A stretch of 64,000 bases of DNA, taken from contig NZ_JAIMJB010000018.1 of the NCBI RefSeq assembly GCF_021295345.1, positions 1 through 64,000 of the forward strand. The letters are read 5' to 3'. The translations under genes and the position numbers were made by a program. Shown here in pieces: positions 1,005-35,845 of the stretch (position 1 is the first letter of the stretch; each line of letters begins with the position of its first letter). Source of the DNA: Motilimonas eburnea (GTDB lineage: Bacteria; Pseudomonadota; Gammaproteobacteria; Enterobacterales; CBDFNC01). The notes beneath the pieces were generated by a model. That model searched no databases and was not told the DNA's origin. It saw only the letters and a program-made list of their open reading frames with translations.

Positions 1005-1020
1005 AACACTCTCCTGCTAA

Positions 1021-2442
<1,422 letters not shown>

Positions 2443-3309: not shown

Positions 3310-3357
3310 TTTGTAACTCCTATATGATTAAATACTGACTGCTATGCAGTTCAGCTT

Positions 3358-4899: not shown

Positions 4900-4911
4900 G
4901 CTCATTCCCCG

Positions 4912-6267: not shown

Positions 6268-7483
<1,216 letters not shown>

Positions 7484-7654
7484 TTAGTTCTCCCAGCTTA
7501 GTTTATTGTTTGTGAATGAATTATTAACACTAGGATAATGAATTTATTCAACTGTACAAAAAACGCCACAAATTATACTTGGAAAGCGGCACAATGCAAC
7601 TCGGGAAAGCATTGATTACAAGGGTTTTGCGGGAAAAGAAAGTAACGGGACATC

Positions 7655-7709
7655 ACAAAAAGGGGATTGCTTTGTAAAAGCCCCGTTTTACACGACATTA
7701 GGTCGTGTT
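7655..7709 (-). terminator. Possible terminator after parB
   Basis: Read on the minus strand, a stem ACACGAC/GTCGTGT overlaps the parB stop. A second, bulged stem (GGGGCTTT...AAAG...CCCC) then ends in TTTTT. It would end the mnmG-rsmG-parA-parB transcript before atpI. Confidence 0.5.
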
Positions 7710-8616
7710 AAGGCATAAATTTGCTTAAAATATCGTCGAGCTCAGCCCCAGATTGATAATCGATCACCAATTTACCAGAGCCTTTTTTTCCTTGTTTTAT
7801 AGACACTTGCGAACCTAAAAAGTCAGAAAGCTTTGATTCTATAGAAATTAGGGTTGGATCCGCTTCTTTCTTCGGTTTTTCCGAGTTAGAAGCCGACTGT
7901 TGCTTGATTAACTTTTCGGTATCACGAACCGTCAACTCTTTTGCAACAACCTGTTTTGCCAATTCAGACTGCAGCTCGCCCGAAACAGCCAGTAGAGCAC
8001 GCGCATGCCCCATGTCTAAATCACCGTGCTCTAACAAGGTTTTTACATCTTCATTCAAACTGTTAAGGCGAAGTAAGTTTGTTACAGAGGTACGCGATTT
8101 ACCAACCGCTCTAGCCACTTCTTGGTGGGTGAGTTGAAATTCTTGCATCAGGCGTTGCAGTGCTACCGCTTCTTCCATCGCATTGAGATCTTCACGCTGG
8201 ATATTTTCAATCAACGCGATGGCCACCGTGGCCTCATCGGAAACATCCTTCACAACGCAAGGAACGGTATCTAAACCCACTTGCTTAGCCGCTCGCCAAC
8301 GGCGTTCACCCGCAATGATTTCATAATCTTGCTCGCCAATTTCCCGAACCACAATAGGTTGAATGATCCCTTGAACACGGATTGAGTTAGCTAACTCTTC
8401 CAACGCGTCGGGCGACATGTCCTTACGTGGCTGATATTTACCTGAGCGCAGCGCTTTCACACTTAACTCTTGCAAATCACCTTTTAATTCTGTCGCACGA
8501 TGTTGGGCGTTTTCACGGCTGATATCCGCTTCCACTTGGGCTTGACGTGCTGCAGCACTGGTTCCCAACAGCGCATCTAAGCCTTTACCTAGGCCTCTTT
8601 TTCTTGGCAGATTCAT
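7708..8616 (-). CDS. parB: Chromosome partitioning protein ParB
   Basis: 302 residues. It begins with the typical RGLGKGLDALLG segment that contacts ParA. The ParB/Spo0J nuclease-like N-domain follows with the CTPase motifs GERRWRAA (near 105) and ENIQREDLNAMEEA (near 138), then the helix-turn-helix THQEVARAVGKSRTSVTNLLRL (near 165-185) that reads parS. The C-terminal part dimerises. It loads at parS as a CTP-dependent clamp. Three perfect parS palindromes lie further right (42806, 45342, 47142). It lies 9 bases after parA. Confidence 0.97.
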   Translation of the reverse strand: MNLPRKRGLGKGLDALLGTSAAARQAQVEADISRENAQHRATELKGDLQELSVKALRSGKYQPRKDMSPDALEELANSIRVQGIIQPIVVREIGEQDYEIIAGERRWRAAKQVGLDTVPCVVKDVSDEATVAIALIENIQREDLNAMEEAVALQRLMQEFQLTHQEVARAVGKSRTSVTNLLRLNSLNEDVKTLLEHGDLDMGHARALLAVSGELQSELAKQVVAKELTVRDTEKLIKQQSASNSEKPKKEADPTLISIESKLSDFLGSQVSIKQGKKGSGKLVIDYQSGAELDDILSKFMP

Positions 8617-8625
8617 ATCCAGTCT

Positions 8626-9417
8626 CTATGCGTGTGCAGGTTGAGTTTGTTGTTGCTCTTCGCGGCGTAACATTTCACCAGCAAGGGCTAAATAGGCTTT
8701 GGCGCCGTTTGACCCCTTATCATAATACATGGCGGGAGCACCAAAACTCGGCGCTTCAGCTAATCTGACATTACGTGGGATCACGGTGCGATACACTTTC
8801 TCACCAAAATGCTGTTTTAACTGATCCGACACGTCGGCAGATAAACGATTACGCGGATCGTACATGGTGCGCAAGATCCCTTCGATCTTCAAGCCAGCGT
8901 TAATCACCGCAGCAAGCTTACTGATGGTATCAACCAAGGCCGTTAAACCTTCAAGGGCATAATATTCACACTGCATCGGCACCAATACAGAGTCAGCGGC
9001 AGACAGCGCGTTCACCGTCAGCATGTTTAATGATGGCGGGCAATCGATAAAAATGTAATCGTACAGATGCGCTTCAGCTTCTAACATGCTTCGAAGCCTC
9101 GTTTCTCTTGCGAAACAATCCATTAGTCTAATTTCTGCCGCCGTGACATCACCGTTAGCGGCAATCAGATGATAGCCACCCGTGGTTTCTTTCACGACCG
9201 CTTGCGATACCGGCATCTCATCAATCAGAACATCATAAGCCGTGGCATCGACATTGTATTTATCAACACCGCTGCCCATGGTGGCATTACCTTGAGGATC
9301 GAGATCAATAACTAAGATTTTACGTTTGGTTGCAGCCATGGATGCGGCCAGGTTTACACACGTAGTGGTTTTACCTACACCGCCTTTTTGGTTGGCTATC
9401 GCTATTATTTTTCCCAC
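8626..9417 (-). CDS. parA: Chromosome partitioning ATPase ParA (Soj)
   Basis: 263 residues. The deviant Walker A motif KGGVGKTT is at residues 10-17, the A' motif DLDPQGNA near 40 and the Walker B segment YIFIDCPPSLN near 120. It is a nucleoid-bound ATPase that moves ParB-parS complexes and so segregates origins. No N-terminal helix-turn-helix is present, so it is the chromosomal (type Ib-like, Soj) form. It follows rsmG by 35 bases, in the standard gammaproteobacterial order. Confidence 0.97.
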   Translation of the reverse strand: MGKIIAIANQKGGVGKTTTCVNLAASMAATKRKILVIDLDPQGNATMGSGVDKYNVDATAYDVLIDEMPVSQAVVKETTGGYHLIAANGDVTAAEIRLMDCFARETRLRSMLEAEAHLYDYIFIDCPPSLNMLTVNALSAADSVLVPMQCEYYALEGLTALVDTISKLAAVINAGLKIEGILRTMYDPRNRLSADVSDQLKQHFGEKVYRTVIPRNVRLAEAPSFGAPAMYYDKGSNGAKAYLALAGEMLRREEQQQTQPAHA

Positions 9418-9452
9418 GATGTTCCCTATAGAACACCTTGCCGTAGCAGGCG

Positions 9453-10073
9453 TTACACTTTTTTAATCAAAACCAGATGGCGTTGGCCTTCTAACTCTGG
9501 AACCGTTAATTTGTGCGTAGCCACTAATTCAAAACTGGATGGTAAGCTAGCGATTTCATCTTCGGGTAATATCCCCTTTAATGCGATAAAAACGCCTTGC
9601 TGTGAAGGTAAATGGGGACACCAATTTAGCATGTCGTGTAGAGATGCGAACGCACGACTTAACACCCCATCAAATCCAATCTCATCTTGATATTCTTCTA
9701 CTCGACTTTGCACTGGGGTGACATTTTTGATCCCCAGTTCGAGTAAAACCTGACGGATAAACCGAATTCGCTTACCTAAGCTATCTAACAGCACAAACTC
9801 CTTGTCAGGGTTCATGATGGCTAAAGGCAAGCCTGGCAAACCAGGTCCAGTTCCCACATCAATAAAACGTTGTCCTTGTAAATACGGACTCACAACGATG
9901 CTATCGAGAATATGTTTTACTAACATATCTTCAGGGTTACGCACTGAAGTCAGATTGTACGCCTTGTTCCACTTATGCAGCAAGTTGACCAAGCCAATCA
10001 ACTGTGATTTTTGTTGATCGGACACCGATAAATCAGTCTTTTTTATCAAAGCGTCCAGTTTTTGTTCTAACAC
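9453..10073 (-). CDS. rsmG: 16S rRNA (guanine527-N7)-methyltransferase
   Basis: 206 residues. The SAM-binding motif [17 protein letters not shown] lies near residue 66-82, and the RsmG fold runs through the whole protein. It methylates G527 of 16S rRNA. The start is GTG at 10073, with AAGGG upstream, 12 bases after the mnmG stop, so it is co-transcribed with mnmG as is usual (gidA-gidB). Loss of the family enzyme is known to give low-level streptomycin resistance. Confidence 0.96.
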
Positions 10074-10085
10074 GCGTTACCCTTC

Positions 10086-11975
10086 TTAGCTAACTTTGCG
10101 AAGCAAACCCATTTTTTTCAAATGAATTAGCAAAATCGACACCGCCGCAGGCGTAATACCTGAAATACGAGACGCTTTTCCGACGGTTTCAGGTTTTGCA
10201 TCGGCTAATTTCGCTTTCACCTCGTTGGAGAGGCCAGAAATATTAGCGTAATCAAAATCGGCAGGGATCAAGGTATGCTCATTGCGTTTTTGACGGTTAA
10301 TTTCTTCTTGCTGACGCTCAATGTAACCCTGATATTTAATTTGGATCTCAACTTGCTCCGCCGCTTGAACGTGCTCAAGTCTTGGTCCTAAGGCTTCAAT
10401 TTCCATCAAAGAGTCATAGCTAAGCTCAGGACGACGTAACAATTCTTCTAACGAATGCTCACGAGTCAGTGGATTTTTCAACTTGGCATTCAGTTGTTCT
10501 AGGTAGTTAGACCCCGTATGGGCCCAAGTAGATCGTAGACGTTGACGTTCGGTTTCAATCAGCTCGAGCTTTTCATTGAACGCCTGCCAGCGAACATCAT
10601 CCACTAGGCCTAATTCACGTCCTTTCGAGGTTAAACGAATATCCGCATTGTCTTCGCGTAGTAACAAGCGGTATTCCGCACGACTGGTAAACATCCGGTA
10701 TGGTTCTTTAGTGCCTAAGGTTGAAAGATCATCAATTAATACACCAATGTAAGCTTGATCGCGTTCTGGGCTCCAACCGGCTTTGTCTTGTGCAAACAGT
10801 GCCGCATTCATACCTGCGATCAAACCTTGGGCACCGGCTTCTTCGTAACCTGTTGTGCCGTTAATCTGGCCAGCAAAGAACAAACCTTGAATAAATTTGT
10901 TTTCAAAGGTTTGTTTTAAATCTCGTGGATCAAAGTAGTCATACTCAATGGCATAACCAGGGCGCGTGATATGCGCATTTTCAAAGCCCTTCATCGAGCG
11001 CACGATATCAACTTGAACGTCAAACGGTAGGCTAGTGGAGATCCCGTTAGGGTATAACTCGTGCGTGGTTAAACCTTCAGGCTCAATGAAGATCTGATGA
11101 GATGATTTATCAGCAAACCGCATCACCTTATCTTCAATCGAAGGACAATAGCGAGGCCCAACACCTTCAATCACACCAGAATACATTGGGCTGCGATCCA
11201 AATTATTGCGGATCACTTCATGAGTTCGATCGTTGGTGTGCGTGATATAGCAAGGGATCTGCGTAGGATGATCTTGGCGCGATCCTAAAAACGAGAATAC
11301 GGGTGTTGGATTATCACCGGCTTGAACCTGTAATGCTGAGAAATCAACGCTTCTGGCATCAATCCGTGGTGGCGTGCCGGTTTTTAAGCGATCAATGCGC
11401 AGTGGTAACTCGCGTAAACGATGAGCCAATGAAATGGAAGGAGGATCACCTGCGCGTCCCCCGCTGTGATTTGCTAAACCTATGTGGATCAATCCGTTAA
11501 GGAAAGTGCCTACGGTTAATACCACAGATTTCGCTTTGATCTTTAGGCCCATCTGGGTCACGACGCCGACAACGCGATCGTTTTCTACGATCAGATCATC
11601 ACAGGCTTGTTGGAAGATCTTTAAGTTTGCTTGATTCTCTAATTTGCTTCTCACCGCCGCTTTGTACAAGGCCCGATCTGCTTGTGCTCGGGTAGCGCGA
11701 ACTGCGGGTCCTTTACTTGAATTCAAGGTTCTAAACTGTATACCAGCAAGATCCGTTGCTTGAGCCATGATCCCGCCTAGCGCGTCGATCTCTTTGACTA
11801 AGTGCCCTTTACCGATCCCACCAATTGCTGGATTACATGACATTTGGCCAAGGGTATCAACGTTATGTGTCAGTAATAGGGTATTTTGTCCCATTCGAGC
11901 TGCCGCTGCAGCGGCTTCGGTGCCAGCATGGCCACCACCGACAACGATCACATCAAAATACTCGTGGTAATTCAT
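10086..11975 (-). CDS. mnmG: tRNA U34 carboxymethylaminomethyl synthase, FAD subunit MnmG
   Basis: 629 residues, full length. The FAD-binding [10 protein letters not shown] motif is near residue 13, and the conserved segments [12 protein letters not shown] (near 275) and [20 protein letters not shown]-like (near 370) are present. With MnmE (34395-35762 here) it builds the cmnm5 modification at the wobble uridine of several tRNAs. It is the first gene left of oriC and reads away from it, as in E. coli. Confidence 0.98.
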
Positions 11976-11997
11976 AAATCCTCAATAAAGCAGCATA

Positions 11998-12336
11998 GAT
12001 CTAACAAACAGCCGCGCATTCTAACTCTATTTTGTGTTGGGGAGAAGGATCAAATGATCATTAAAAAAATCCCTTTGGATCTAAATAAATATATATAGAT
12101 CTTTAAAGATCTTTCTTATTAGATCTATATATTAGATCTCACAAGATCAGTGGATAACCAAGTTATTGATCATCGGATCAAGATCTTAAGTCAGATCATT
12201 GAGTGTGGAAATAGTGGGATCATCACGGGCATTCCCTGCGCTTAACTGGGTTACTTATCCACAAGACTAATCTGATATTAATCTGTGAATAGGATAACTA
12301 ATGGTTAATCAGAGCTAAATTGCATAGTTATACACA
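11998..12336. other. oriC: Chromosomal replication origin oriC
   Basis: The gene-free stretch between mnmG and mioC, the same place as E. coli oriC. It contains 14 GATC sites between 11998 and 12221. An AT-rich unwinding segment with repeated AGATCT-like units covers 12078-12140. DnaA boxes are AGTGGATAA (12149-12157, one mismatch), TTATCCACA (12255-12263, perfect) and TTATACACA (12328-12336, E. coli R2 type). Dense GATC implies Dam methylation and SeqA sequestration. The right-hand limit is approximate. Confidence 0.93.
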
Positions 12337-12432
12337 GAAAAAAGATGGAATTTGGGTATGAAGTTTCATTGTTTATCGTTAATTGAGCAACTGAAGAGAA
12401 GGCTTTTGAAGGAAAAGGCAGGTTTACATAGC

Positions 12433-12456
12433 AGGGAGCTTAGCTGATAGCTCCCT
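12433..12456 (-). terminator. Hairpin after mioC
   Basis: AGGGAGCT and AGCTCCCT form an 8-bp stem with an 8-base loop, just past the mioC stop. There is no clear U tract, so termination is uncertain. It may limit mioC transcription into oriC. Confidence 0.35.
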
Positions 12457-12465
12457 TATCTATCG

Positions 12466-12927
12466 TTATTTTTGGTATTGAGTTAATTGATTCAGCCATT
12501 GCGGGATCCACTGCTCAGCCGCATCTTCTGGTATAGGGTAGGCTTGGATATCGATGGTTAATGGGTCGGCGGTTTGTACTGCGCCAAGTTGTTGCAATTG
12601 GTTGTCCATCTTAAGCCCAGCCTCACAAAACGTATCGTAACTTGAGTCACCTAATGCAATAACTGCATACGGCAGGCCACGTAAGTTGGGTTGTTGCTGT
12701 GCTAATTGCGTTGCAAACTCAACAATAGATTCGGGATAGTCTCCGGCACCATGTGTCGATGTGACTACTAGCCAAATATGGGCTTCATCATAAGGAAGCG
12801 CCGCTAAGTTAGGCGGATTATGAATGTGTGTGCTAAACCCTGCTTCTTCTATATAAGGAACCAATGCATCGGCTATGTACTCTGATGCTCCCATCGTCGT
12901 ACCGACGAGTAAATGAATTGTTGCCAT
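12466..12927 (-). CDS. mioC: Flavodoxin-like protein MioC
   Basis: 153 residues from the ATG at 12927. That start is chosen over an upstream one (12963) because TAGGAGG lies six bases before it and the protein then begins MATIHLLVGTTMGASEYIAD, the usual MioC start. The flavodoxin FMN-binding loop (GTTMGASE) and the second loop (STHGAGDYPES) are present. MioC has been linked to biotin synthase electron transfer in vitro. It reads toward oriC, as in E. coli, where its transcription affects origin activity. Confidence 0.95.
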   Translation of the reverse strand: MATIHLLVGTTMGASEYIADALVPYIEEAGFSTHIHNPPNLAALPYDEAHIWLVVTSTHGAGDYPESIVEFATQLAQQQPNLRGLPYAVIALGDSSYDTFCEAGLKMDNQLQQLGAVQTADPLTIDIQAYPIPEDAAEQWIPQWLNQLTQYQK

Positions 12928-13008
12928 AAATATCCTCCTAACGTAACAGGATAAATCTATCATAATGGCTTATATTTACGTAAATAACTTTATCCTTATG
13001 CCAGACTG

Positions 13009-13392
13009 ATGAGTAAAGTACTGATAATAGAAGATGACGAGCTGATGGTGCGCATGTTGGTTAGGTTGCTTAATAAGCTTGAGCTTGAGGCAATCACCTC
13101 AGAGTTAGTGCCTACGGATGAACAGCTAAAAGAGGCCTGTTTAGTCATTTCTGATATCTCATTACCCAATGTCCCAGGCATTGCACATATTGAGAAAATC
13201 GCTAAATCAACATGTTGCAACAAGCTGCCTGTCATCGTTATTTCTGGTATGGATATCACTACCCTCGAATCAACCCAAACCTTACTCAAGCTACTTAATG
13301 TTAATTTATTGGGGACTTTTAGAAAACCTTTTAACAAGAAGCAACTATCTGATTTTATAAAAGAAAGTATAATAGAGACGGTGGTAAAGTAG
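13009..13392 (+). CDS. Single-domain response regulator (receiver only)
   Basis: 127 residues made only of a receiver domain. The acidic pair is EDDE (residues 8-11), the phospho-acceptor Asp lies in VISDISLP near 49, the Thr/Ser position is in VISGMD near 82, and the conserved Lys is in FRKPFN near 107. There is no output domain, so it must act by protein contact (CheY or Spo0F style). No kinase gene adjoins it. It is divergent from mioC and precedes the bufferin operon by about 100 bases. Target unknown. Confidence 0.85.
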   Translation: MSKVLIIEDDELMVRMLVRLLNKLELEAITSELVPTDEQLKEACLVISDISLPNVPGIAHIEKIAKSTCCNKLPVIVISGMDITTLESTQTLLKLLNVNLLGTFRKPFNKKQLSDFIKESIIETVVK

Positions 13393-13492
13393 CTATTTTG
13401 TGATTTTTTTGAAATTTTTATCCTGATTGTCCGGTTCTATTAATTGAACTTAGCCAAGTGGCTACAACGCAAAAAAGTGAAGGATAAAAGTT

Positions 13493-13753
13493 ATGCAAAA
13501 ATCGAATCTTATGTTGGCTTCAGCCATTTCAGGTGTATTGGCATTAGGTGCAACCCTGGCTGCTGCCCCCGCTGTGGCTGCAGAGAAAGAGAAATGCTAT
13601 GGCGTAGCGAAAGCCGGGCAAAACGATTGTGCCACTAAAACAACTTCTTGTGCTGGTACCTCTACGGTTGATAACCAAGGTGATGCGTTTATCGCCTTGC
13701 CTAAAGGCTTATGCGATAGATTGGCTGGCGGCAGTTTAACGCCGAAAGAATAA
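13493..13753 (+). CDS. bufA: Bufferin-type precursor peptide (DUF2282), BufA/HvfA
   Basis: 86 residues. A Sec signal peptide (about 1-29, ending APAVA) is followed by a short mature part with four cysteines at 35, 46, 53 and 74, in contexts [17 protein letters not shown] and GLCDRL. This is the bufferin/HvfA pattern. In this family a DUF692 (MNIO) enzyme modifies cysteines to thiazole- or oxazolone-type groups, and the exported peptide binds copper. The stop overlaps the next start (TAATG), so translation is coupled to the enzyme gene. GAAGGAT precedes the ATG. Confidence 0.9.
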
Positions 13754-14598
13754 TGACTTGCCCTATTAGTGCACTTGGGGTTGGCATTGGCTTACGCCAT
13801 CCCCATTTTGCAGAAATCTTGGCTCAGCGCCCCGCTTTGGCATTTGTTGAAGTACACAGTGAGAACTATTTTAATCCACATAGCCGAAATCGCGCATACC
13901 TAGATCAAATAGCCCAACATTATGCCTTAAGTTGCCATGGTGTTGGTTTGTCATTAGGGAGTAAAGATCCTTTATCCAGTGAACACTTAGCCCAATTAAA
14001 AGCCTTAGTGGATGCGTACAACCCGGCTCTAGTGTCTGAACATTTAAGCTGGGGATCCATTGATGGTCGCTACTTTAATGATCTTTTACCCCTACCTTAT
14101 ACACAGGAAATGGTGCAACACTTTGCTGAGCGTGTGGATCAGGTTCAGCAGATCTTAGGCAGGCAGATCTTAATTGAAAACCCTTCGGCGTATTTGCAGT
14201 TTTCCCATGCCGATCTTTGCGAGTGGGAAGTGTTAAACCTGTTGGTTGAGAAAACGGGATGTGGATTGTTGCTCGATTTGAACAACATTTATGTGAGTTC
14301 GATGAATTTAGGATTTGATTGTGATACTTATCTGGCATCGATCGATCATAACGCGGTGGTTGAGATCCATTTAGCCGGATTCACTCGCAAGCACTTAGGG
14401 ACGGGTGAAATACTGATTGATACCCATGGCAGTCGAGTGAGTGATGCGGTGTGGGATTTATATTCCCAATACCTCAAGCGAGATCCTGCTGTGGTGACAT
14501 TAATTGAATGGGACACGGACATTCCCCCGCTGGAGGTGTTGCTAGAAGAGCAGCAAAAGGCACTGGCGATAAACAGGGAGCAAGATCATGGCTGCTAA
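13753..14598 (+). CDS. bufB: DUF692 multinuclear iron oxidase (MNIO), BufB/HvfB
   Basis: 281 residues, a TIM-barrel DUF692 protein. The conserved metal-ligand contexts are VEVHSENYF (near 32), CHGVGLSLG (near 57), ILIENPSAY (near 137), LLLDLNNIYVSS (near 174), EIHLAGF (near 204) and IEWDTDIP (near 253). MNIO enzymes use an iron cluster and oxygen to remodel cysteine in precursor peptides, here presumably the adjacent BufA. It overlaps bufA by one base and the next gene by 11. Enzyme class is certain, substrate is inferred from neighbourhood. Confidence 0.93.
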   Translation: MTCPISALGVGIGLRHPHFAEILAQRPALAFVEVHSENYFNPHSRNRAYLDQIAQHYALSCHGVGLSLGSKDPLSSEHLAQLKALVDAYNPALVSEHLSWGSIDGRYFNDLLPLPYTQEMVQHFAERVDQVQQILGRQILIENPSAYLQFSHADLCEWEVLNLLVEKTGCGLLLDLNNIYVSSMNLGFDCDTYLASIDHNAVVEIHLAGFTRKHLGTGEILIDTHGSRVSDAVWDLYSQYLKRDPAVVTLIEWDTDIPPLEVLLEEQQKALAINREQDHGC

Positions 14599-25486: not shown

Positions 25487-27253
25487 ATGATGAAATCTAT
25501 CTGCTTGATTGTGTTGCTTACTTGCCACTCATTTGCGGCTGCCGCTGCAACCACACATGAGCTTGAACTCGATTACCCCTTGATGCTGATGGGTCTGTTT
25601 GGTGGCTTGGCCATGTTCTTGTATGGCATGGAAAAAATGACTCAAGCCTTAAGTCGTGCCGCTGGCAGTAGAATGAAGTACGTGTTGGGCAAGCTGACCA
25701 CTAACCGAGTTAGCGGGGTGTTCACAGGGGCGGGGTTAACTGCGGTGATCCAATCCTCGTCGGTCACTACTGTGCTGGTGGTCGGGTTTGTTAGCGCGGG
25801 CTTAATGTCATTAAATCAGGCGGTTGGCATAATTATGGGGGCCAATATCGGCACCACCATCACAGCTCAAATCATCGCCTTTAAAGTCACTAAGGTGGCA
25901 TTGGCATTCATCGCGCTCGGTTTTTTAGGCCAAGTGATGGCCAAGACGGAATCGGCTAAAAACTACAGCAATATTCTATTTGGATTAGGGCTGTTGTTTT
26001 TGGGAATGAACACCATGAGTGATGCGATGTCGCCATTACGCACCTTTGCGCCTTTTGTCGACTTCATGGCAAAGATGAACAATCCCCTCTTCGCCATCAT
26101 GATTGCCGCCATCTTTACTGCCTTGGTGCAATCATCATCTGCCACCACGGGCATTGTTATTGTTTTAGCAAGTCAGGGATTTGTGAGTCTTGAATCCGGT
26201 ATAGCCATGGCCATGGGGGCCAATGTAGGGACATGTGTCACCGCTCTGTTGGCCGCCATAGGCAAGGGAGCGGAATCCAAGCAAACCGCTGGCTTGCATT
26301 TTTTGTTTAATGTCATGGGTGTGATTATCTGGTTACCCCTGATCGCCTTATTGGCTAATTTGGCCACCTCCATCTCACCAGCTTACCCTGAACTGCTAGG
26401 CGTTGAGCGTTTAGCGGTAGAAACCCCCAGACAAATAGCCAATGCGAATACCATTTTTAATGTCATGAACACCGTTATTATGCTGCCATTTAGCCATCTC
26501 TTTGTCGTCGCGGTAAAAAAGTTGGTGCCAGCAAAAGAAACCACCAAACCGCAACGGAGTTTGGCGTTAAAATATGTTCGAGAAGACTTTTTAGCGACGC
26601 CCGATATCGCGCTAGAGCAAACGAAACTTGAGGTTTCTCGCGTTGGCCGCCGCGTGGTGAACATGCTCAATGCCATGCCGCCTTTAGCGCAATCCATGGC
26701 CAGCGAGGTCGATAAGCAACAAGTGCGAGAAACACTACGTGACATCGCCAAAATAGAAGACGAAGTGGATATTCTCCATGGCAAGATTTTGCGCTATTTA
26801 GGCCAGTTACGCCAATCCCCCCTGACCGAGCTGCAGAGTAAGCAACAGATAAACTTGGTGAGTATTACCGATCATCTTGAAAACATAGCCGATACCATAG
26901 TGAACGTATTACTGCCCTTAAGTCATCACACCTTGGAATCGAATCTGATGGCCAGTAAGGAAATGCGCGTTGTGCTGGATACTACCCAAAGCCGGGTGCG
27001 AGAAGCCTTACTCGACAGCGTGAATGCCATTCGCCGCAACGACGATCAACTGGCCGAAAATGTGCTCAGCGCCAAACGTGAAATCAACGTGTTGCTGGAA
27101 AAGGTGTTAGCCCGCCAAGCCGAGCGCTTAGTGCAAAACACCGACGCCAGATTAGACATCTTTCGCGCGCAAATGGAATGGGTTAACGGCCTTAAGCACG
27201 TCTACACCCTAAGTAAACGCATCGCTAAGCTGCAATTGCGTAAGGTGAATTAG
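25487..27253 (+). CDS. Na+/phosphate cotransporter family protein with PhoU-like tail
   Basis: 588 residues. An N-terminal signal-like segment precedes two inverted Na/Pi repeats carrying the signature QSSS: VIQSSSVTTVLVVGF (near 84) and LVQSSSATTGIVIVL (near 213), each followed by GAN(I/V)GT. About eight membrane helices occupy residues 30-345. The C-terminal cytoplasmic part (about 380-580) is a PhoU-like helical domain. This is the NptA/YjbB class, which exports or imports phosphate with sodium. Confidence 0.92.
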   Translation: MMKSICLIVLLTCHSFAAAAATTHELELDYPLMLMGLFGGLAMFLYGMEKMTQALSRAAGSRMKYVLGKLTTNRVSGVFTGAGLTAVIQSSSVTTVLVVGFVSAGLMSLNQAVGIIMGANIGTTITAQIIAFKVTKVALAFIALGFLGQVMAKTESAKNYSNILFGLGLLFLGMNTMSDAMSPLRTFAPFVDFMAKMNNPLFAIMIAAIFTALVQSSSATTGIVIVLASQGFVSLESGIAMAMGANVGTCVTALLAAIGKGAESKQTAGLHFLFNVMGVIIWLPLIALLANLATSISPAYPELLGVERLAVETPRQIANANTIFNVMNTVIMLPFSHLFVVAVKKLVPAKETTKPQRSLALKYVREDFLATPDIALEQTKLEVSRVGRRVVNMLNAMPPLAQSMASEVDKQQVRETLRDIAKIEDEVDILHGKILRYLGQLRQSPLTELQSKQQINLVSITDHLENIADTIVNVLLPLSHHTLESNLMASKEMRVVLDTTQSRVREALLDSVNAIRRNDDQLAENVLSAKREINVLLEKVLARQAERLVQNTDARLDIFRAQMEWVNGLKHVYTLSKRIAKLQLRKVN

Positions 27254-27603
27254 GGCGAGATCCGCTAAGGGTAAGTTTATCTCGCCAAAAAGGTGATCGG
27301 ACTTATTTACTATGTCCTCCTTTATCCATTTGGCTGGGATGTTGATAGCATTGTTCTCTTTTGAGCGGATCAATAGATCTTAGTTGGGTTGGGCCAGATT
27401 GTAGTGCTTGAAGACTCAAGAGTTGTTACGTTTGAAAGAGCTATACATCACTTCTACTAGTAATTATCCTATTAATAATCATCGTAAAACCAATATAATA
27501 ACTAAATGAAAGCTCTTAAACACAAATGTTTTGGCCTCTAGTTAGTGATTAAAGATATTCGTACAAGGTTGTGGGGGGAACCAATGCACTGGGAGTGGTT
27601 GAT
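27254..27603. other. Left boundary of the defence-like insertion
   Basis: About 350 bases without a gene. A hairpin (GGCGAGA at 27254, TCTCGCC at 27280) lies right after the transporter stop and may end its transcript. The rest is AT-rich. No tRNA, direct repeat or integrase was seen, so the insertion mechanism is not visible. Confidence 0.4.
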
Positions 27604-30600
27604 ATGTCAATAATTGTTAGTCAGGAGTTTATTGAGCCATCGGATATTGAGCAGGAAATAGCTAGGCAACAACAGACTAGTGTTATCGAAGTTGGCGCTC
27701 AATCTCTGCCTTATCAAAATTTAGACCCAGCGCAGTTCGAGTGCTTACTTTGGGATCTGTTTCGCAGCGGTTTTGAAACAGATCTTGGGCATGACTATAC
27801 GCGACTGATGCTCACAGGAGCAGATCAGGGGCGCGATGTATGGATGACCTCGCACGAAATCCCGGTTGGCTTAGTCCAGTGCAAACGCTATAGCGAGAAG
27901 ATTACCCAAAAAGAAACAATAAAAGAGATCGTTAAGTTTCTTCTTTACGCAGACCTGAATAGGAAATTGTTACCAAAACCCGAGTGTTTCACTTATTACT
28001 TAGCTCTTAGTTGTGGCCCAACGGGTGAAGTTGATGAGTTTTTCAACACGCCAAGTTCATGGCTTAGAGATAACCTTGAAGAAATCGAAACAGCAGCCAA
28101 AGCTGTTATTGCTAAGTATGCTTCTCTAAAGATGGTTGATCTAAGCTGTGCAATGTCACCTCTGCGCGAGCGATTTCAAGCATTGAACTATAGGTTGTTA
28201 AGGCCTCATGAACTGGATAGAGCTCTTAGTATCCATACAGATGTGAGAGAGCGGCACTTTAGGATTCCGGTTCATTCACTGCAATTGTCCAGAGCTCCGT
28301 TTTCTGGTAATAATACCGCTGTACCAAACGACTTGGCTCAAGCTAGCCGACAGCTTGCCTGTTGGCAAAAGACTATTGAAAACCGATTTATAGAACGACC
28401 TGAGCTACAAGATTTGCTTCAGCTGGTTCATTCAAATGAGAGTAGTTGTCATATTCTGACTGGCGTATCAGGCAGTGGGAAATCGTCACTACTATCTGCT
28501 CTTTATGAACGCTTACTTGACGACGATTTTTCTGTTCTGGCAATTAAAGCGGATGAGTTAGATGTCAAGGTTAACGATCTGACTGAGCTGGCAGAAAGTC
28601 TCAAACTAAGTGGAAATCTTACCAATATTTTGCTTGGGGCTTCACAAACCAAACCAGTGGTATTGCTAATTGATCAAATGGATGCAGTTAGTGAGGTAAT
28701 GGATCAAAGCTCAAACCGTTTTAGAGTGCTTGTAGACCTGGTTGTTTCTCTAAAAAGTCGGTTTGAGAGCATTAAGTTAAGTGGCAAAAAGCCAGTTCAT
28801 ATCATCGTGACTTCTCGCCCCTTTGAGGCTAGTTTTGATACTCGTTTTACTCAGTTGGAAGCAAAGTATATTGAACTACCATTGCCTGAAAAGGCAGCTG
28901 TTGAAGCACTTTTAACTGACTTTGGGATAAAAATATCATCGATCCCGCCATCTATGTATCCAGCAATTCAAGTTCCTTTCGCTTTAAATCTGTATGTAAG
29001 CCTTATTAAGGCTGGTGAACAGCCTGACCAAGTTACGTCAAAGAACTTGTTACAGCGATGGCTGGATAAGAAACTGACAGACAGAGCAAGTCGAGCTGAA
29101 CAGATGCTTTTTTTAAAGCGTCTGGCTCAGGATATGGTGAGTAACGAAGTGCTCAGGCGTCCTGTTGATGCTTACCAGTTTGAGAGCGGCCACGTTATTG
29201 CAGCGCTTGAGGCGGCTGGTATTTTGTTGCGGTATGATAAGAATATAGGCTTTAGCCACCAAGCCTGGCTTGATGATTTTCAGGCTCAGAGTTTTAGCAA
29301 TTCAGATGATTTGTGTAGTTTCGTCTACCAAAAACAAGATGGCCTTTTTTCTAGAAGCACGATTTTGCGAGGACTTGAATCTTTGAGGGAAAGAGATCCT
29401 ATGGGGTATCAGTCGACTCTTGACTCATTACTCTTCGGTGGTCGATCACGACGTCATATCCTGCACCTGTTAGTTGATATCCTGGCAATTTCTCCAACCC
29501 CAAGTGCATCCGACGCTGAACGAATTCTTCGATTGATTAATGGTGACGTAGTTTTAGCTAAAAGAGCAATATCTAAAGTAGCGGCAAACTGGAGCAATTG
29601 GCGAGATCATTTGATAGCTAGCATACCAGAGATAATGGAAGAAGCTGAATATAGTAGTCACGTGGTGGAATGGTTGATCGCTGAGTCTAAACACGATGAA
29701 GGGCATGTCATATCACTACTTAACAGGCTTTGGTTTGAGCCTGCTTATGACGATATGACTCTTCGTGTACTATGGCGAGCTTCGGCATATTCAGAGGCCG
29801 CTTTTCGACTTTTTAGGCAATTAATGGCTAGGAATAATGCTGATTCGCTCTATATAGAAGGGTATCTATCAAATTTATGTGAGAAAGGATACACCAAGCA
29901 AGCATTAACCATTCTTGTTGCTTGGTTGAACTCGATCGATGACAAAACAGCATTAGAACAACATATCTACGGCTTCGAGAAACTTGCTATAAATCATCCC
30001 TTGGAATGTATCAAAGCGATATTGCCATGGGTAATACAGTTAATAGAAGAAAATAGCAGCGCAAAACTTGGTTACACTTACCGTAGTAGAATCAGGTCTG
30101 TTATTGAGAGGGATGAACAGTCCGATAGTAGTTCTTTGTTAGGTGGCCTCCGCCTTGCAATTTCAACTTCTGCCCAAAATACGCCAAACGAGTTGCTTCA
30201 ATTAATCAGACCATACATGGCTGTTGATATTGATGATGTACAGGTCATTGTTGCATCAGCTCTATTGTCTAATGGAAAACACTATGCGCAGGACATATAT
30301 GACTATCTGCTTGGTGACCGTTGTCGCTTACAGTTAGGTTCTGGTTACTTCAAAGATGAAGATAATGTCGGTTATACATTTAATGGCAGTGTTACCCTGG
30401 AACTGATAGAAGAAGCGGTCTCACTTTGGAATGATAAGCAAGTTTCTGTCATTAGAGATGCTATTGAGCAGTTCCGTTCGCATCAGCCAAGCGCTGATTA
30501 TCCTGCTGATATGAAGCTAAGGTGTATGCATTACAGCGAGGGTTACCGACTGGCATTACTTTCGAGGTTGCCATCAAAAGCTTTGTCCCCAAGAAGAAAT

Positions 30601-32157
30601 AGACAGATATCAGAAAGAGACAAAAGACACGAGCCTGCTATTGGTGAGCGTTCCAGAGGAGTTGGCATGGCTTCTGTCGTTAGGTCACCAATGTCCTCAG
30701 AACAGATGGGGAAAGCCCGAAAACAAGATATTTTAAATTTGCTCAATGAGATAACTGATCAGCATAAGCGTCATGGTGAGGGACGGCGTTGGCTTTCTGG
30801 TGGAGTCATTGAGTTGTCTAGCGCTTTTGGTTCGTATGCTGCCAACAACCCTGAGCAGGCAATAGAGCTTATTACGGATGAGTTTCGTCAGGGCTTGCAC
30901 GAATATGCGGCCTCTGAGGCTATTGAGAATTTAGCGAAGTCTGAAGTTGTAGCTCCAAAACAAGTAGTGAATCTTATCATCCAACTCAATCAGCGTGGGT
31001 TTAATTCGAAAGAGTGGATAACCGGCGTTGCCAGAGCATTCCAAGCTATAGCAGGAAGGGAAAATGGGTTAGATGATCAGTGTATTCAAATACTTTTGGG
31101 TTACTTAAACTCAAACTTAGATACAGGAAGTGAACTTGAGGGAGATTTCACGGGGGGGGGACCGGGGCAGGCCCTGCTCTTTGGTCATTCTAATGGCTTT
31201 CGTGCCGTCCCAGCTGGAAATTACACTATCATGTCTGCCATACATCAAGGGTTGCTTTGTCGCCAGCCCCCGAGTTGCGATACATGGGTAGATGTTTTAT
31301 TGCAGTTTTTAAATACATCACAAGACACAGAAACTTGGAAGTGTCTATTGCTGTTTCAATTTCGCCATTTACGTTGGGCGAGTCAAGATAAGTGTAATGA
31401 GTTGGTTAATCGGTTGGTTGATGAACATTCCCGTGTATTTTCGTTACCAACAACGGCTATGACAATCTGGGAATTAGCTGATGTATTACAGCCTGTAACA
31501 CTGCTAAAAATTGTTAGATACTGGCTATCTTCGAAATCATCAGTCTTGATTCAAGTTGCTGGAGAGTTTGTTACAGGGCAGCTGATCATTGGTAACGAGA
31601 ATAATGAACTACATCAGATTTGGAGTCAGCATTTCGGTCTAAAAGAACCTCATTTCATGCGTGGCATTATCCATGCGGCATGCACTGGTTGGCATGAGGC
31701 GGGAAAAGTTCGCGGCGATTCCCACAAAATGCTTATGGCGTGCCTTCAGGGTGACATAAAGGAGCTAGTCACTGCATTAAACAGTTTGTTTCCATATAGC
31801 AAGCAGATGCCAAATGATGAACTGACTTATGATGTGGTTGATTGGCTTGCTGGTCATCCTGAAGTTGTATCTGAGTTAAACAGGCACTGTCTGATTAGCA
31901 ATCTGGTCAAAATTAATTTTTCTCCTAAACTTCAACTCTCAATACTTGATATTGCTAAGAACTTAGTAAAATCGCAACAGAAAGCAAATCCAGAGCGCCA
32001 ATATTTTGAACATAGCGAAGAGTTGGTGCAACTAGCAGTTACTTTACAGAGAGGAGCTGGAGCGATAAAAGAAGGAGCAATAACTTTGTACGAAACCTTA
32101 TTGGATGCAGGCAACTATCAAGCAGAAAAAGCTGCGCAGGAAGCTTTGAGGTTTTAG
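27604..32157 (+). CDS. Avs-like STAND ATPase with N-terminal restriction-type nuclease
   Basis: 1517 residues from the ATG at 27604, with GGGAG nine bases upstream; the frame is open from a GTG at 27571. The N-terminal Mrr-like PD-(D/E)xK nuclease has GADQGRDVW (near 73-80) and VQCKRY (near 91-96). The STAND ATPase has Walker A GVSGSGKSSLL (near 287), Walker B VVLLIDQMD (near 353) and a VTSRPFE sensor (near 402). About 900 C-terminal residues form an alpha-solenoid, expected to sense a phage protein. The layout matches antiviral STAND proteins, closest in plan to the Mrr-bearing Avs4. An in-frame G9 tract lies at 31152-31160. Family assignment is from motifs and order, not a search. Confidence 0.75.
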   Translation: MSIIVSQEFIEPSDIEQEIARQQQTSVIEVGAQSLPYQNLDPAQFECLLWDLFRSGFETDLGHDYTRLMLTGADQGRDVWMTSHEIPVGLVQCKRYSEKITQKETIKEIVKFLLYADLNRKLLPKPECFTYYLALSCGPTGEVDEFFNTPSSWLRDNLEEIETAAKAVIAKYASLKMVDLSCAMSPLRERFQALNYRLLRPHELDRALSIHTDVRERHFRIPVHSLQLSRAPFSGNNTAVPNDLAQASRQLACWQKTIENRFIERPELQDLLQLVHSNESSCHILTGVSGSGKSSLLSALYERLLDDDFSVLAIKADELDVKVNDLTELAESLKLSGNLTNILLGASQTKPVVLLIDQMDAVSEVMDQSSNRFRVLVDLVVSLKSRFESIKLSGKKPVHIIVTSRPFEASFDTRFTQLEAKYIELPLPEKAAVEALLTDFGIKISSIPPSMYPAIQVPFALNLYVSLIKAGEQPDQVTSKNLLQRWLDKKLTDRASRAEQMLFLKRLAQDMVSNEVLRRPVDAYQFESGHVIAALEAAGILLRYDKNIGFSHQAWLDDFQAQSFSNSDDLCSFVYQKQDGLFSRSTILRGLESLRERDPMGYQSTLDSLLFGGRSRRHILHLLVDILAISPTPSASDAERILRLINGDVVLAKRAISKVAANWSNWRDHLIASIPEIMEEAEYSSHVVEWLIAESKHDEGHVISLLNRLWFEPAYDDMTLRVLWRASAYSEAAFRLFRQLMARNNADSLYIEGYLSNLCEKGYTKQALTILVAWLNSIDDKTALEQHIYGFEKLAINHPLECIKAILPWVIQLIEENSSAKLGYTYRSRIRSVIERDEQSDSSSLLGGLRLAISTSAQNTPNELLQLIRPYMAVDIDDVQVIVASALLSNGKHYAQDIYDYLLGDRCRLQLGSGYFKDEDNVGYTFNGSVTLELIEEAVSLWNDKQVSVIRDAIEQFRSHQPSADYPADMKLRCMHYSEGYRLALLSRLPSKALSPRRNRQISERDKRHEPAIGERSRGVGMASVVRSPMSSEQMGKARKQDILNLLNEITDQHKRHGEGRRWLSGGVIELSSAFGSYAANNPEQAIELITDEFRQGLHEYAASEAIENLAKSEVVAPKQVVNLIIQLNQRGFNSKEWITGVARAFQAIAGRENGLDDQCIQILLGYLNSNLDTGSELEGDFTGGGPGQALLFGHSNGFRAVPAGNYTIMSAIHQGLLCRQPPSCDTWVDVLLQFLNTSQDTETWKCLLLFQFRHLRWASQDKCNELVNRLVDEHSRVFSLPTTAMTIWELADVLQPVTLLKIVRYWLSSKSSVLIQVAGEFVTGQLIIGNENNELHQIWSQHFGLKEPHFMRGIIHAACTGWHEAGKVRGDSHKMLMACLQGDIKELVTALNSLFPYSKQMPNDELTYDVVDWLAGHPEVVSELNRHCLISNLVKINFSPKLQLSILDIAKNLVKSQQKANPERQYFEHSEELVQLAVTLQRGAGAIKEGAITLYETLLDAGNYQAEKAAQEALRF
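31152..31160 (+). repeat. Homopolymeric G9 tract inside the Avs-like gene
   Basis: Nine consecutive G bases encode part of a Thr-Gly-Gly-Gly-Pro-Gly segment. A slip of one base would shift the frame in the last quarter of the protein. Such tracts are known phase-variation sites in other bacteria. Confidence 0.7.
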
Positions 32158-32328
32158 AGTATTTTAACCTAATTAATTAGTAGTGGATTGCGGGAAAGGC
32201 ATTCCTCTTTTGGTAAATCGGTGCATTCGGCGTGTTGGCAGAGTAGGGCTTTCGCATGTGTAAGCCTAATTCTGACGCATTGGATAACTTTTATTTTACA
32301 AGTTAGATTGGAATAAGTGGTTGCGAAC

Positions 32329-34320
32329 ATGTTTCATATTGAAGACCAAGTGGATTTACAGGCTCTTTCTGAGTCAGCTGAATTAGAGTTTAAGCTTGCC
32401 CAGGGGAAAAATGGCAAGGGAAAGCTCCCTGATGATTTTTGGCCAACTTATAGCGCAATGGCTAATAGCCGTGGTGGCTATGTTGTACTTGGTGTTCGTG
32501 AAAAAAAAGGCAAATTGACACTTGCAGGAATTGAAGACATTGAAACCGTCCGTAAGCAACTTTTTGACACTGCAGGTAATCGTGACAAGGTTAACATTAA
32601 CTTATTGACTAATGATTGCGTGCAAGTGGTATCTGTAGAAGGTAAACAATTGTTGGTTATCGAAATTCCTGCCGCTCGTCGAGAACAAAAGCCCGTCTAT
32701 CTGAAAAACCAGCCTATGAAAGAGACTTTTATTCGCCTTCATGAAGGAGATCACCGTTGTAGCGAAGAACAAGTAAAACGCATGATGGCTGAACAGGTTG
32801 AAAGTAGTAGAGATGACAAGATCCTTAAAGGATTTGATTTTAGTGATATTGATCCTGATAGCCTTAGTGTATACAAAAATTTGTTTGCTGCAGCTAAGCC
32901 TCAGCACCCTTGGCTAGAGCTTGATCTATTTGATATGTTTAAGAAAATTGGTGGGTGGCGAAAAGATCGTCAAGCGGGAGTGGAAGGCGTTACGTTAGCA
33001 GGCGTACTTATGTTTGGCACATGGGAAGCGATTCAAGATGCCGCTCCACACTATTTTGTTGACTATCGAGAGAGAGATGAGGCCAATACTCAGCGCTGGA
33101 TTGATCGTGTCTATCCCGATGGTTCTTGGTCTGGAAATGTATTCGACTTTTATCGGCGTACATACAGAAAATTAATCACCGATTTAAAAGTTCCTTTCGA
33201 GCTGCAAGAAGGAGTACGGCTGGATGAATCTAAGGCTCATGAGGCAATTCGTGAAGCCTTGGTTAATACTCTTGTTCATGCTGATTATACTGGACGAAGC
33301 TCAATACTGATCGTTAAACGCCCTGATCTGTTTGGTTTTCGAAATCCAGGATTGATGCGTATACCACCGGAAATTGCAGTCAAAGGTGGAGAAAGCGATT
33401 GCCGTAACCGACGCATGCACCAGATGTTCTTGATGATCGGTGCTGGTGAGCGAGCTGGCTCAGGTATACCGAAGATTTACAGTGGTTGGGAGGCTGCTAA
33501 ATGGCGAACTCCAAAACTGTATGAGAAGCAATCGCCCTCTGAACAGACACTTTTAGAGCTATCAACAGCAAGTCTAATTCCTAACGAAGTTACAGATCTA
33601 CTAGGTTCTTTATTCGGTGATCGTTTTTACACGCTTGATGAACTTGAGCAGATGATTGTTGCAACGGCGGCTATTGAGGGATGGGTTAACCATGAGCGGG
33701 CATGCCAGTTAACAAGCAAGCACTCCCGTGATGTAACATTGACCTTGCCTAGGCTAGTTGATAAAGGCTTTTTGGTTGCAAGTGGTGTAAAGAAAGATAA
33801 GTCTTATAGTTTACCTGGTATGGACCCCCCTTCTCCCGAAGATGTTTTCTCAAATGCGTTAACCTCTCTCGACAACTTAACGCATAACGTCGACAGCTTA
33901 ACGTATAACGTCGACAACTTAACGCATAAAGATAGTAACTTAACGCATAGAAGCTTGGTTGATAAAGACAACAAAAGTGATAGTAGGGATTCACAGGGTC
34001 GCCTAATAAGCGATCAAATAGATAAGCCCTTTGTTTATGAGCTTGATGAATTGGCTGAAGCTTTCCGTTTGGAGCTTGTCCAATTAGGTGCTCAAGCTAG
34101 AGAGCAACGGCGCTTGGATACCAATACCATGAAGCAATTGATTCTCGAGCTTTGCAAAGGGCATTATATTTCCGTTGCTGTGCTTGAGGCGCTGTTAGAT
34201 CGTAAAGCACAAAGCTTACGCCAAAACTATCTGAAATCTATGGTATCTAAAGGAGAACTTAAAATGGCTTTTCCTCATAAACCTAATTCTCCAATGCAGG
34301 GATATACTAGCGTAGGCTAG
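32329..34320 (+). CDS. AlbA_2 / HATPase protein (COG2865-type, Schlafen-like N-domain)
   Basis: About 663 residues; the start may be GTG at 32317 or ATG at 32329. The N-terminal AlbA_2 (divergent AAA-4/Schlafen core) domain has ESAELEFKLA and YSAMANSRGGYVVLGV (near 15-60). The middle carries a GHKL-type ATPase region with EAIREALVNTLVHADY (near 320) and GAGERAGSGIPKIYSGWE (near 385). A repetitive linker (near 515-545) precedes winged-helix-like C-terminal segments. Such proteins are common in defence islands, but their action is unknown. It follows the Avs-like gene by about 170 bases on the same strand. Confidence 0.75.
   Translation: MFHIEDQVDLQALSESAELEFKLAQGKNGKGKLPDDFWPTYSAMANSRGGYVVLGVREKKGKLTLAGIEDIETVRKQLFDTAGNRDKVNINLLTNDCVQVVSVEGKQLLVIEIPAARREQKPVYLKNQPMKETFIRLHEGDHRCSEEQVKRMMAEQVESSRDDKILKGFDFSDIDPDSLSVYKNLFAAAKPQHPWLELDLFDMFKKIGGWRKDRQAGVEGVTLAGVLMFGTWEAIQDAAPHYFVDYRERDEANTQRWIDRVYPDGSWSGNVFDFYRRTYRKLITDLKVPFELQEGVRLDESKAHEAIREALVNTLVHADYTGRSSILIVKRPDLFGFRNPGLMRIPPEIAVKGGESDCRNRRMHQMFLMIGAGERAGSGIPKIYSGWEAAKWRTPKLYEKQSPSEQTLLELSTASLIPNEVTDLLGSLFGDRFYTLDELEQMIVATAAIEGWVNHERACQLTSKHSRDVTLTLPRLVDKGFLVASGVKKDKSYSLPGMDPPSPEDVFSNALTSLDNLTHNVDSLTYNVDNLTHKDSNLTHRSLVDKDNKSDSRDSQGRLISDQIDKPFVYELDELAEAFRLELVQLGAQAREQRRLDTNTMKQLILELCKGHYISVAVLEALLDRKAQSLRQNYLKSMVSKGELKMAFPHKPNSPMQGYTSVG
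33871..33954 (+). repeat. Four tandem 21-bp repeats in the AlbA_2 gene
   Basis: Four copies of a unit starting GACAACTTAACGCATAACGT, with a few changes in copies 2-4. They encode the heptad D-N-L-T-H-N-V and variants, and appear to be a flexible linker. The copy number could vary without breaking the frame. Confidence 0.85.
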
Positions 34321-34394
34321 GTTGTTAGCCCCAATTAATTTCTAATCCTGCAAGGTTAATCGGGGCTGAATTTGGTTATGGAGAGTTGCTTCTT

Positions 34395-35762
34395 TTATTT
34401 ACCTATACAAAAACTAGAGAATATCCGCGTTAACAGGTCGTCACTGGTAAATTCACCGGTGATTTCACTGAGTGCTTCTTGAGCTAAACGTAGCTCTTCG
34501 GCCAGCAATTCGCCCGCCATATACACTTCTAACTGCTCCTTGCCGTTATCGACATGGTGGCTGGCGATGTTCAAGGCTTCTAGGTGACGACGACGGGCCA
34601 TAAAGCCGCCTTCGGTGCTGCCTTGGTAGCCCATGATTTCCTTTAAATGCTCACGCAGGGCATCGAGACCTAGGCCAGTTTTGGCACTGATGCGATACAC
34701 GGGGTGGCCGTGATCTTCGCTGATAGAGAGAGATTCACCGGTTAAATCGGCTTTGTTGCGCACCACTGTCATGCCGATGTTTTGCGGTAGACGCTCCACA
34801 AAGTCGGGCCAAATTTTAGCGGGGTCAAGCTCATCCGTGGTGGTGCCATCCAGCATAAATAATACCCGATCAGCATTATTGATTTCTTGCCAAGCGCGCT
34901 CGATACCGATTTGTTCAACCACGTCTGGGCTCTCACGCAAACCAGCGGTGTCGATGATGTGCAGTGGCATGCCGTCGATATGAATATGTTCGCGTAATAC
35001 ATCTCGGGTGGTACCGGCAATTTCGGTGACGATGGCGGCTTCTTTACCGGCTAGGGCATTTAGTAAGCTCGATTTACCAGCATTAGGGCGGCCGGCTATC
35101 ACTACCTTCATGCCTTCACGCATAATGGCGCCTTGTTTGGCCTGATTTTGTACCTTGGCGAGCTTATCGATAATGGCGTACAGCTGGGCTTGGATATGGC
35201 CATCGGATAAAAAGTCGACCCCTTCTTCATCGGGAAAGTCGATGGCGGCTTCAACGTAAATACGCAGGTGGATCAGGGCTTCTACTAGCTCATGAATTTT
35301 ATTGGAAAACTCACCTTGCAATGAATGCAATGCGCTTTTGGCGGCTTGTTCCGAGGTGGCTTCAATAAGATCGGCAATGGCTTCGGCTTGGGCTAAATCC
35401 AGTTTGTCGTTCATAAAGGCGCGTTCAGAAAACTCACCGGGGCGAGCGCTGCGCACGCCATCGATAAGCAGAATACGTTTAATCAGCATGTCCATTACGA
35501 TGGGGCCGCCGTGGCCTTGCAGCTCTAACACGTCCTCACCGGTAAATGAATGTGGCCCTTTAAACAGCAGCGCTATGCCTTCGTCTAGCGCTTGATTGTG
35601 CTCATCTAAAAACGGCAAGTATTCGGCATAGCGAACGCGCGGTTGCTTGCCCAATACGATCTCAGCAACCTGCTCACAGGCGGGGCCAGAGACGCGAATA
35701 ATGCCGACGCCGCCGCGTCCAGGTGGAGTGGCTTGGGCTACAATTGTGTCGATTGAGTTCAT
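34395..35762 (-). CDS. mnmE: tRNA modification GTPase MnmE
   Basis: 455 residues from the ATG at 35762, giving the conserved start [21 protein letters not shown] frame from 35837 adds 25 unrelated residues. The folate-binding N-domain (1-118) is followed by a helical domain and an inserted G domain (near 216-375) with [20 protein letters not shown] and NKAD. The C-terminal CIGK motif carries the cysteine. It works with MnmG on tRNA wobble uridines. It is downstream of yidC on the same strand but separated by a terminator. Confidence 0.97.
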
Positions 35763-35823
35763 CTGAATATGCCTACTGCAATAGGTTATGCTTTTAGTTT
35801 GGTTATTATACTTGGTTAGTAAC

Positions 35824-35845
35824 AAAAAAGGAGCCAATCGGCTCC
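35824..35845 (-). terminator. Terminator after yidC
   Basis: Stem GGAGCC / GGCTCC with a 4-base loop. On the minus strand it is followed by TTTTTT. It ends the rpmH-rnpA-yidD-yidC transcript before mnmE. Confidence 0.85.

Follow-up and report, generated by a model that had tools for sequence, protein, structure and literature searches.

The locus considered here raises two questions: what kind of protein is encoded by a large gene combining nuclease, ATPase and helical parts, and does it form one system with the smaller gene that follows it? Both genes lie in a 64,000-nucleotide stretch of the Motilimonas eburnea genome (assembly GCF_021295345.1, contig NZ_JAIMJB010000018.1, positions 1 to 64,000, forward strand), here called the window, in which the interval 27254-34394 holds two plus-strand genes between a Na/Pi-cotransporter-like gene and mnmE (= trmE). 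Gene 1 (27604..32157, +, 1517 aa from ATG) encodes an Mrr nuclease - STAND/NACHT-like NTPase - helical sensor protein, and gene 2 (32329..34320, +, 663 aa from ATG) a SLFN_AlbA_2 - HATPase_c_4 - Fic-like_C protein. An earlier annotation made from the DNA letters (the sequence-only reading) had given both open reading frames (ORFs) at these coordinates, and they are present in the ORF listing. Gene 1 is likely to be a stand-alone antiviral STAND (NLR-like) receptor, with gene 2 a separate cargo at the same spot, a reading drawn from the domains, the conserved nuclease and nucleotide-binding motifs, the swapping of effectors among relatives, the location at an integration hotspot and the lack of co-occurrence of the two genes.

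Gene 1 has the tripartite layout of antiviral STAND proteins (effector, STAND NTPase and repeat sensor), as the sequence-only reading proposed and as Pfam, motifs and predicted structure now support. Its Pfam matches, all above curated cut-offs, are Mrr_cat (1.7e-5), AAA_16 (3.2e-9) and nSTAND1 (6.9e-7). The Mrr_cat effector domain, of PD-(D/E)xK type, occupies residues 38-115 (27715..27948, +) and contains the motif GADQGRD...VQCK, from which a nuclease had already been proposed. Residues E46, D78, Q92 and K94, which we take to be the catalytic residues of the PD-(D/E)xK fold, are common to gene 1 and three relatives of the module in an alignment (L028, L034 and L035), and D74 is kept in two of these three. 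The module is mobile: L028 has it in an ABC-3C protein, and related stretches occur in a plasmid protein of Agrobacterium and in a protein of an E. coli plasmid record. At L028 it stands in a different context, fused to CTD3 (Pfam 1.9e-50), a domain of ABC-three-component systems; this Mrr-CTD3 protein is followed by a large ORF that by eye could be its ATPase, the two spanning 8120-13842 of that locus. The central part of gene 1 (28321..29610, +, residues about 240-669) comprises the NTPase, a winged helix and a following helical region, and its motifs are intact (Walker A GVSGSGKS 287-294, Walker B LLIDQMDAV 354-362, and GFSHQ 549-553); the model of residues 237-669 has a predicted local distance difference test score (pLDDT) of about 90. 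The remainder (29611..32154, +, residues 670-1517) is a putative sensor of some 850 residues, predicted to form a HEAT/ARM-like solenoid: the model of residues 545-1517 is almost all-helical, with a mean pLDDT of 81 and a predicted TM-score (pTM) of 0.57, in line with the helical C-terminal sensor expected from the sequence.

Relatives of gene 1 were collected in two steps. A single-sequence scan of genome_contigs with gene 1 gave 12 pattern matches and no relative, and the best long relative from single-sequence searches came from a Nostoc plasmid and has SEFIR (1.2e-13) in the nuclease's place; it is 25% identical across residues 249-1412 of the 1528-residue query. A two-row profile of the gene 1 protein and this Nostoc SEFIR-STAND protein, searched against genome_contigs, yielded 16 loci, 12 of which (L038-L049) cover most of the NTPase and sensor. 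In the other four (L050-L053) the match is confined to the NTPase region, and these were excluded from the alignments; L043, whose match ends at query residue 1021 of 1289, and L045, whose match ends at 1177, were retained. With the Nostoc protein, gene 1 has 13 near full-length relatives, sharing 23-30% identity with the window protein. The NTPase motif residues are invariant in 14/14 members, as are many sensor columns, and the N-termini differ: a phosphorylase domain in L046 (PNP_UDP_1, 1.6e-14), DUF4062 in L047 (3.8e-16), a death-like bDLD1 domain in L043 (1.4e-23), HNH in L044 (5.9e-5) and by resemblance in L045, an LmuA-like nuclease in L038 (4.2e-11), short and probably helical stretches in L039-L041, and a stretch that looks TIR-like by eye in L042. 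A Pfam search of the L039, L041 and L042 N-termini found no match, and in L048 and L049 the N-terminal domain is absent or nearly so. In a midpoint-rooted tree of the sensor only (13 rows), the window protein and L038-L041 form a clade of five with 100/100 support that holds three N-terminal types. Comparison of the sequences thus demonstrates exchange of predicted effectors on a common NTPase-sensor receptor, in a family of few members; because the relatives keep the NTPase and sensor and swap the N-terminus, they follow the modular plan of antiviral STAND receptors. No paper describing the family was found by title or abstract; it is a little-studied family that, judged from its alignments, keeps the sensor and swaps the putative killing part.

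The same N-termini bear on whether gene 1 might instead be a MalT-like signalling or transcription-regulating STAND ATPase with no defence role. STAND proteins do regulate transcription too, and the structures matched by the NTPase fold include one from the maltose system (8bob, Z 13.7). However, Pfam lists no DNA-binding regulator domain in gene 1, the nuclease motif is kept at the N-terminus, and the relatives carry other killing-type domains, so that this explanation appears very improbable. Two further observations concern gene neighbours in this wider set. At L043 the bDLD1-STAND protein stands beside a divergent ORF with a start that is similar by eye (7063-8247 and 8665-12984), suggesting partner recruitment, and at L026 the ORFs (834-5171) near a STAND protein of the sister genome G001 (6824-11533) look type III restriction-modification-like by eye.

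Several points weigh against an antiviral receptor. The family has few members, so that most N-terminal types are represented by one protein each, and full-length relatives are rare near home: when the order (345 genomes) and the class (369 genomes) were searched, with at most two candidates scored per genome, the sole full-length match was the window itself. In the class search 30/369 genomes match, two of them (G648 and G633) over the NTPase at E <1e-30 and the remainder with weaker, short matches. For L038-L049 the neighbourhood gives no independent proof of defence; a known defence gene, DSR2, is seen next to the distant relative in L025 only. The Mrr domain has no confident model, as nearly all of residues 1-236 have a pLDDT <50, a likely effect of unrelated N-termini being combined in one alignment, and the structure model of the N-terminal nuclease was discarded as unusable. 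The fold matches of the sensor are generic HEAT/ARM ones, with a TMq of 0.11-0.29 among the 50 matches listed, a Z of at most 12.3 and a root-mean-square deviation (rmsd) of 11.4. No Avs chain is among these 50 matches, an absence that proves nothing, and the sensor profile has no match among PDB sequences up to E 1. Apart from these points, profile A1 gave 66 pattern matches in viral_contigs, none of them confirmed, and the phage records contain no match to the gene 1 NTPase and sensor.

Like gene 1, Avs1-Avs5 (AVAST) are single proteins consisting of an effector, a STAND NTPase and a long helical C-terminal sensor, and the sequence-only reading had called gene 1 Avs-like. Membership in that group is not borne out: the window protein matches Avs4 over the P-loop region only, with 17.5 bits in PADLOC (residues 270-379) and 17.8 bits in NCBIfam against a cut-off of 1500, and in PADLOC no other Avs model is listed for it at E up to 1. 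Assignment to Avs1-Avs5 was rejected for want of a full-length match above cut-off. One family member has a weak Avs2 match (7.5e-5). Gene 1 also differs from Avs in its effector, an Mrr domain. A second likeness is to bNACHT25 and bNACHT32 (clade 6), described in PMC12169576, which have an N-terminal PD-(D/E)xK DNase and with which gene 1 shares a core that is NACHT-type by predicted fold; where bNACHT25 carries the NCH1 helical domain, gene 1 has its solenoid instead. In Pfam the window protein has no NACHT (PF05729) match at E up to 1, and the proteins of L018, L025 and L027 match it weakly (21.6-25.4 bits against a cut-off of 26.7). Gene 1 is thus not Avs1-5 by model match and not bNACHT by sequence, and it is NACHT-like by predicted fold.

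Two other groups match gene 1 in sequence. The best PADLOC match of gene 1 (58.8 bits) is PDC-M54A, an uncharacterised candidate family; the match spans residues 281-563 of 1517, leaving the effector and most of the sensor outside. Two PDC-M54A models match 11/14 and 10/14 of the gene 1 family members, and no paper naming PDC-M54 was found. Among proteins of solved structure, the one convincing relative by sequence is a 1523-aa protein deposited as 'AAA family ATPase' (PDB 9n00/9n01/9yix), which the gene 1 profile matches with an E of 3.7e-46 over 9n00 residues 182-674. The L025 protein, a close relative of 9n00 (1942 bits), aligns by profile with the first half of the gene 1 sensor model at 96.9% in hhalign (18% identity, 523 columns). 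The N-terminus of 9n00/9n01/9yix differs from that of gene 1, and neither a publication nor a function was found for these entries.

By predicted fold, the NTPase core resembles that of animal receptors. Its predicted structure superimposes on NLRP3, NLRP9, NLRC4 and NOD2 with a Z of 19.6-21.4 and an rmsd of 4.2-5.0 over 352-399 residues, and scores lower against Apaf-1 (Z 14.9), Avs4 (8dgf, Z 14.2, rmsd 17.0) and EfAvs5 (9jap, Z 12.6, rmsd 12.2). Avs4 and EfAvs5 thus do appear among the fold matches of the NTPase but rank below the NLR chains. The comparison sets a predicted model against chains picked by Foldseek and is no proof of descent; among the chains compared, the predicted core resembles animal NLR NACHT modules more closely than Avs4. 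A broader proposal, which we put forward tentatively, is that gene 1 belongs to a distinct, unnamed bacterial NLR-like family: a HEAT-like sensor, itself conserved and probably tuned to a single conserved feature of phages, would sit on a core nearer in fold to the NACHT modules of animal NLRs than to Avs, and the family would extend across at least four phyla (Pseudomonadota, Cyanobacteriota, Nitrospirota and Acidobacteriota) and carry at least seven kinds of N-terminal domain. The constancy of the sensor while effectors are exchanged points to a single conserved phage ligand, and with its NLR-like core the family would bring a bacterial branch into comparisons of how NACHT-type receptors become active.

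The studied STAND proteins covered in PMC12931631 and PMC12169576 serve as a model for the steps of sensing, oligomerisation and killing, and it is by analogy with them that we infer a phage ligand, oligomerisation, DNA cutting and immunity for gene 1. In the resting state the NTPase would keep the protein inactive. Binding of a phage product by the C-terminal helical solenoid would release it, nucleotide-driven oligomerisation through the NTPase and winged-helix core would follow, and the N-terminal Mrr-type nuclease domains would be brought together to cut DNA, with infection stopped by cell killing or arrest. Gene 2 would be a separate arrival at this site by the 3' end of mnmE, and the two would not make up one system. 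The identity of the effector also allows for a different trigger, namely that gene 1 responds to foreign DNA or to a signal of plasmids or conjugation, instead of a phage protein, and is directed against mobile elements of any kind: its Mrr module is labelled 'Restriction endonuclease' in Pfam and is presumably of the type IV restriction kind, and an island location favours competition between elements. In known examples, by contrast, among them those in PMC12931631, a long solenoid joined to a STAND core serves to sense proteins, and this explanation is considered unlikely.

Gene 2 has its three domains in the order of the Schlafen family (Pfam and an alignment of 15 proteins), namely SLFN_AlbA_2 (1.8e-12), HATPase_c_4 (4.6e-6) and a C-terminal Fic-like/winged-helix part (Fic-like_C, 5.7e-7), all above curated cut-offs. 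The gene is common, with matches in 51/345 genomes of the order, 15 of which (its own included) extend over most of its length, in 26 plasmid records (11 over >=80%) and in 20 phage records; DNA matches were found in 8/5426 E. coli genomes, none over 80% of the query. Its reputation as a frequent resident of defence islands, invoked in the sequence-only reading, is supported by its surroundings elsewhere. Six of 15 relatives have type I restriction genes as neighbours (identified by annotation in L020 and by Pfam in L057, L060, L061, L062 and L065) and one lies between Wadjet genes and SIR2-HerA (L030). Others adjoin a phage integrase (L055 and L056), lie at the 3' end of yicC (L058, L059 and L064), or occur alone or among other genes (L019, L054 and L063), and a 72.5% relative on a Salmonella contig is near tRNA-Pro and has no defence neighbours. 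PMC12839542 describes fusions of Schlafen RNases with a minimal histidine kinase and a winged helix-turn-helix (wHTH) domain, spread across BREX and related loci, and refers to a preprint on the defence role of bacterial Schlafens. Gene 2 has the same AlbA_2 - HATPase - wHTH architecture as the proteins of restriction-modification and BREX loci treated there, and, unlike those linked to restriction-modification, stands here without such a system. Gene 2 is probably a separate defence-associated protein of Schlafen type, acting as an RNase or a regulator. Two structural peculiarities were seen in this family. The relative with the top identity when the order was searched (86%, over its first part; L065, 4438-13361) is broken into two ORFs and has another AlbA_2 protein as its neighbour within a type I restriction-modification operon, and a 21-nt tandem repeat of 3.9 copies within gene 2 (window 33869-33949) codes for a repetitive linker, at which site some relatives carry different repeats.

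Do the two genes form a pair? The sequence-only reading suggested a little-studied two-gene system, in which gene 2 would be a regulator, an antitoxin-like partner or a second effector of gene 1. The genes lie on the same strand, 171 bp apart, have a similarly low GC content at third codon positions (GC3), and both encode defence-type domains. Against this, tblastn found gene 2 in 0/26 gene-1-like loci and gene 1 in 0/15 gene-2-like loci, while the same search, as a positive control, recovered gene 1 in 24/26 of its own loci (the other two, L025 and L029, being too distant for tblastn to detect it) and gene 2 in 15/15. Near full-length relatives account for 13 of the 26 loci, and 10/13 of these have >5 kb of sequence downstream, L042, L045 and L047 having <1 kb. 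The distributions differ as well, gene 2 being found in 51/345 genomes of the order (15 mostly full) and gene 1 at full length in one. In genome G079 a gene 2 relative and an Mrr-module protein are about 180 kb apart. Since the two do not co-occur in the 26 and 15 loci, a two-gene system is not supported and was dropped on this count; we regard it as highly unlikely. Most likely the pair consists of two separate defence cargoes that share an island hotspot.

The nature of that hotspot emerges from the right-hand neighbour. The sequence-only reading placed the genes between housekeeping loci without integrase or tRNA, which is literally true but overlooks the fact that they sit directly downstream of the mnmE 3' end, a mobile-island hotspot and published integration site. 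SGI1 and its variants integrate at the trmE (= mnmE) 3' end, and yicC is another SGI1-type target, according to PMC8409611. In the window, the last 18 bp of mnmE (34395..34412, -) correspond to the SGI1-type attachment place. Three sister genomes hold different genes at the same spot: a RecQ-like gene and a small gene in G001 (by eye), a thioesterase-like gene and others in G002 (by eye), and in G003 a tyrosine integrase (Pfam), possibly split over two ORFs, that begins 160 bp past mnmE. In G343, from another family of the order, mnmE is followed by an 8.8-kb islet (L025, 1286-10079) encoding a 1524-aa STAND protein of the 9n00 family and DSR2 (PADLOC 1.9e-139); it is flanked on each side by a perfect 23-bp repeat of the mnmE end and contains no integrase-sized ORF besides these two genes. 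For the window pair, no second copy of the mnmE end was found beside the island at <=3 mismatches, and no integrase-sized ORF is present, suggesting that the border has eroded or that the genes arrived by another route. Candidate attachment (att) repeats were discarded, the sole other match at <=3 mismatches (at 7544) lying outside the island and windows around the mnmE end giving only 16-of-20 matches about 10 and 17 kb off. The gene 2 relatives at yicC fit the picture of an island site. At one of them (L064, 8154-11937) the yicC end recurs in degraded form (17 of 20) about 3.2 kb away, past the gene 2 relative and an IS200-like ORF; no second copy was seen at L058 and L059. The mnmE and yicC 3' ends, familiar as targets of SGI1-type resistance islands, are suggested as landing sites for small defence islets without their own integrase.

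The interval is bordered by the Na/Pi-cotransporter-like gene at 25487-27253 (named by eye) and mnmE at 34395-35837 on the minus strand. Gene 1 has an alternative GTG start at 27571 (27571-32157), and ATG 27604 was judged better, with GGGAG upstream; for gene 2 the listed start is GTG 32317 (667 aa), and ATG 32329 is preferred because two relatives begin at its equivalent, L065 (MFHIEDKVDL) and L091. Besides the two genes, 27254-34394 contains no plus-strand ORF of >=80 aa and two antisense ORFs of 101 and 81 aa, and therefore none of integrase size. Both genes have a low GC3 (0.368 for gene 1 and 0.354 for gene 2) compared with 0.423-0.573 in the six neighbouring genes measured. The intergenic gap (32158..32328, 171 bp) contains no RNA family and, by scan, no terminator-like site, and its folding energy is at the level of shuffled sequence (z -0.01). 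Across the window, an Rfam search gave no match and no structured RNA, a tRNA search found none, and the count of DnaA-box-like sites is not above chance. Elsewhere in the window, the region between mnmG and a mioC-like gene (11976-12465, gene names by eye) is a likely oriC, with the minimum of the cumulative GC skew near 12 kb and DnaA-box-like sites at 12255 and 12328.

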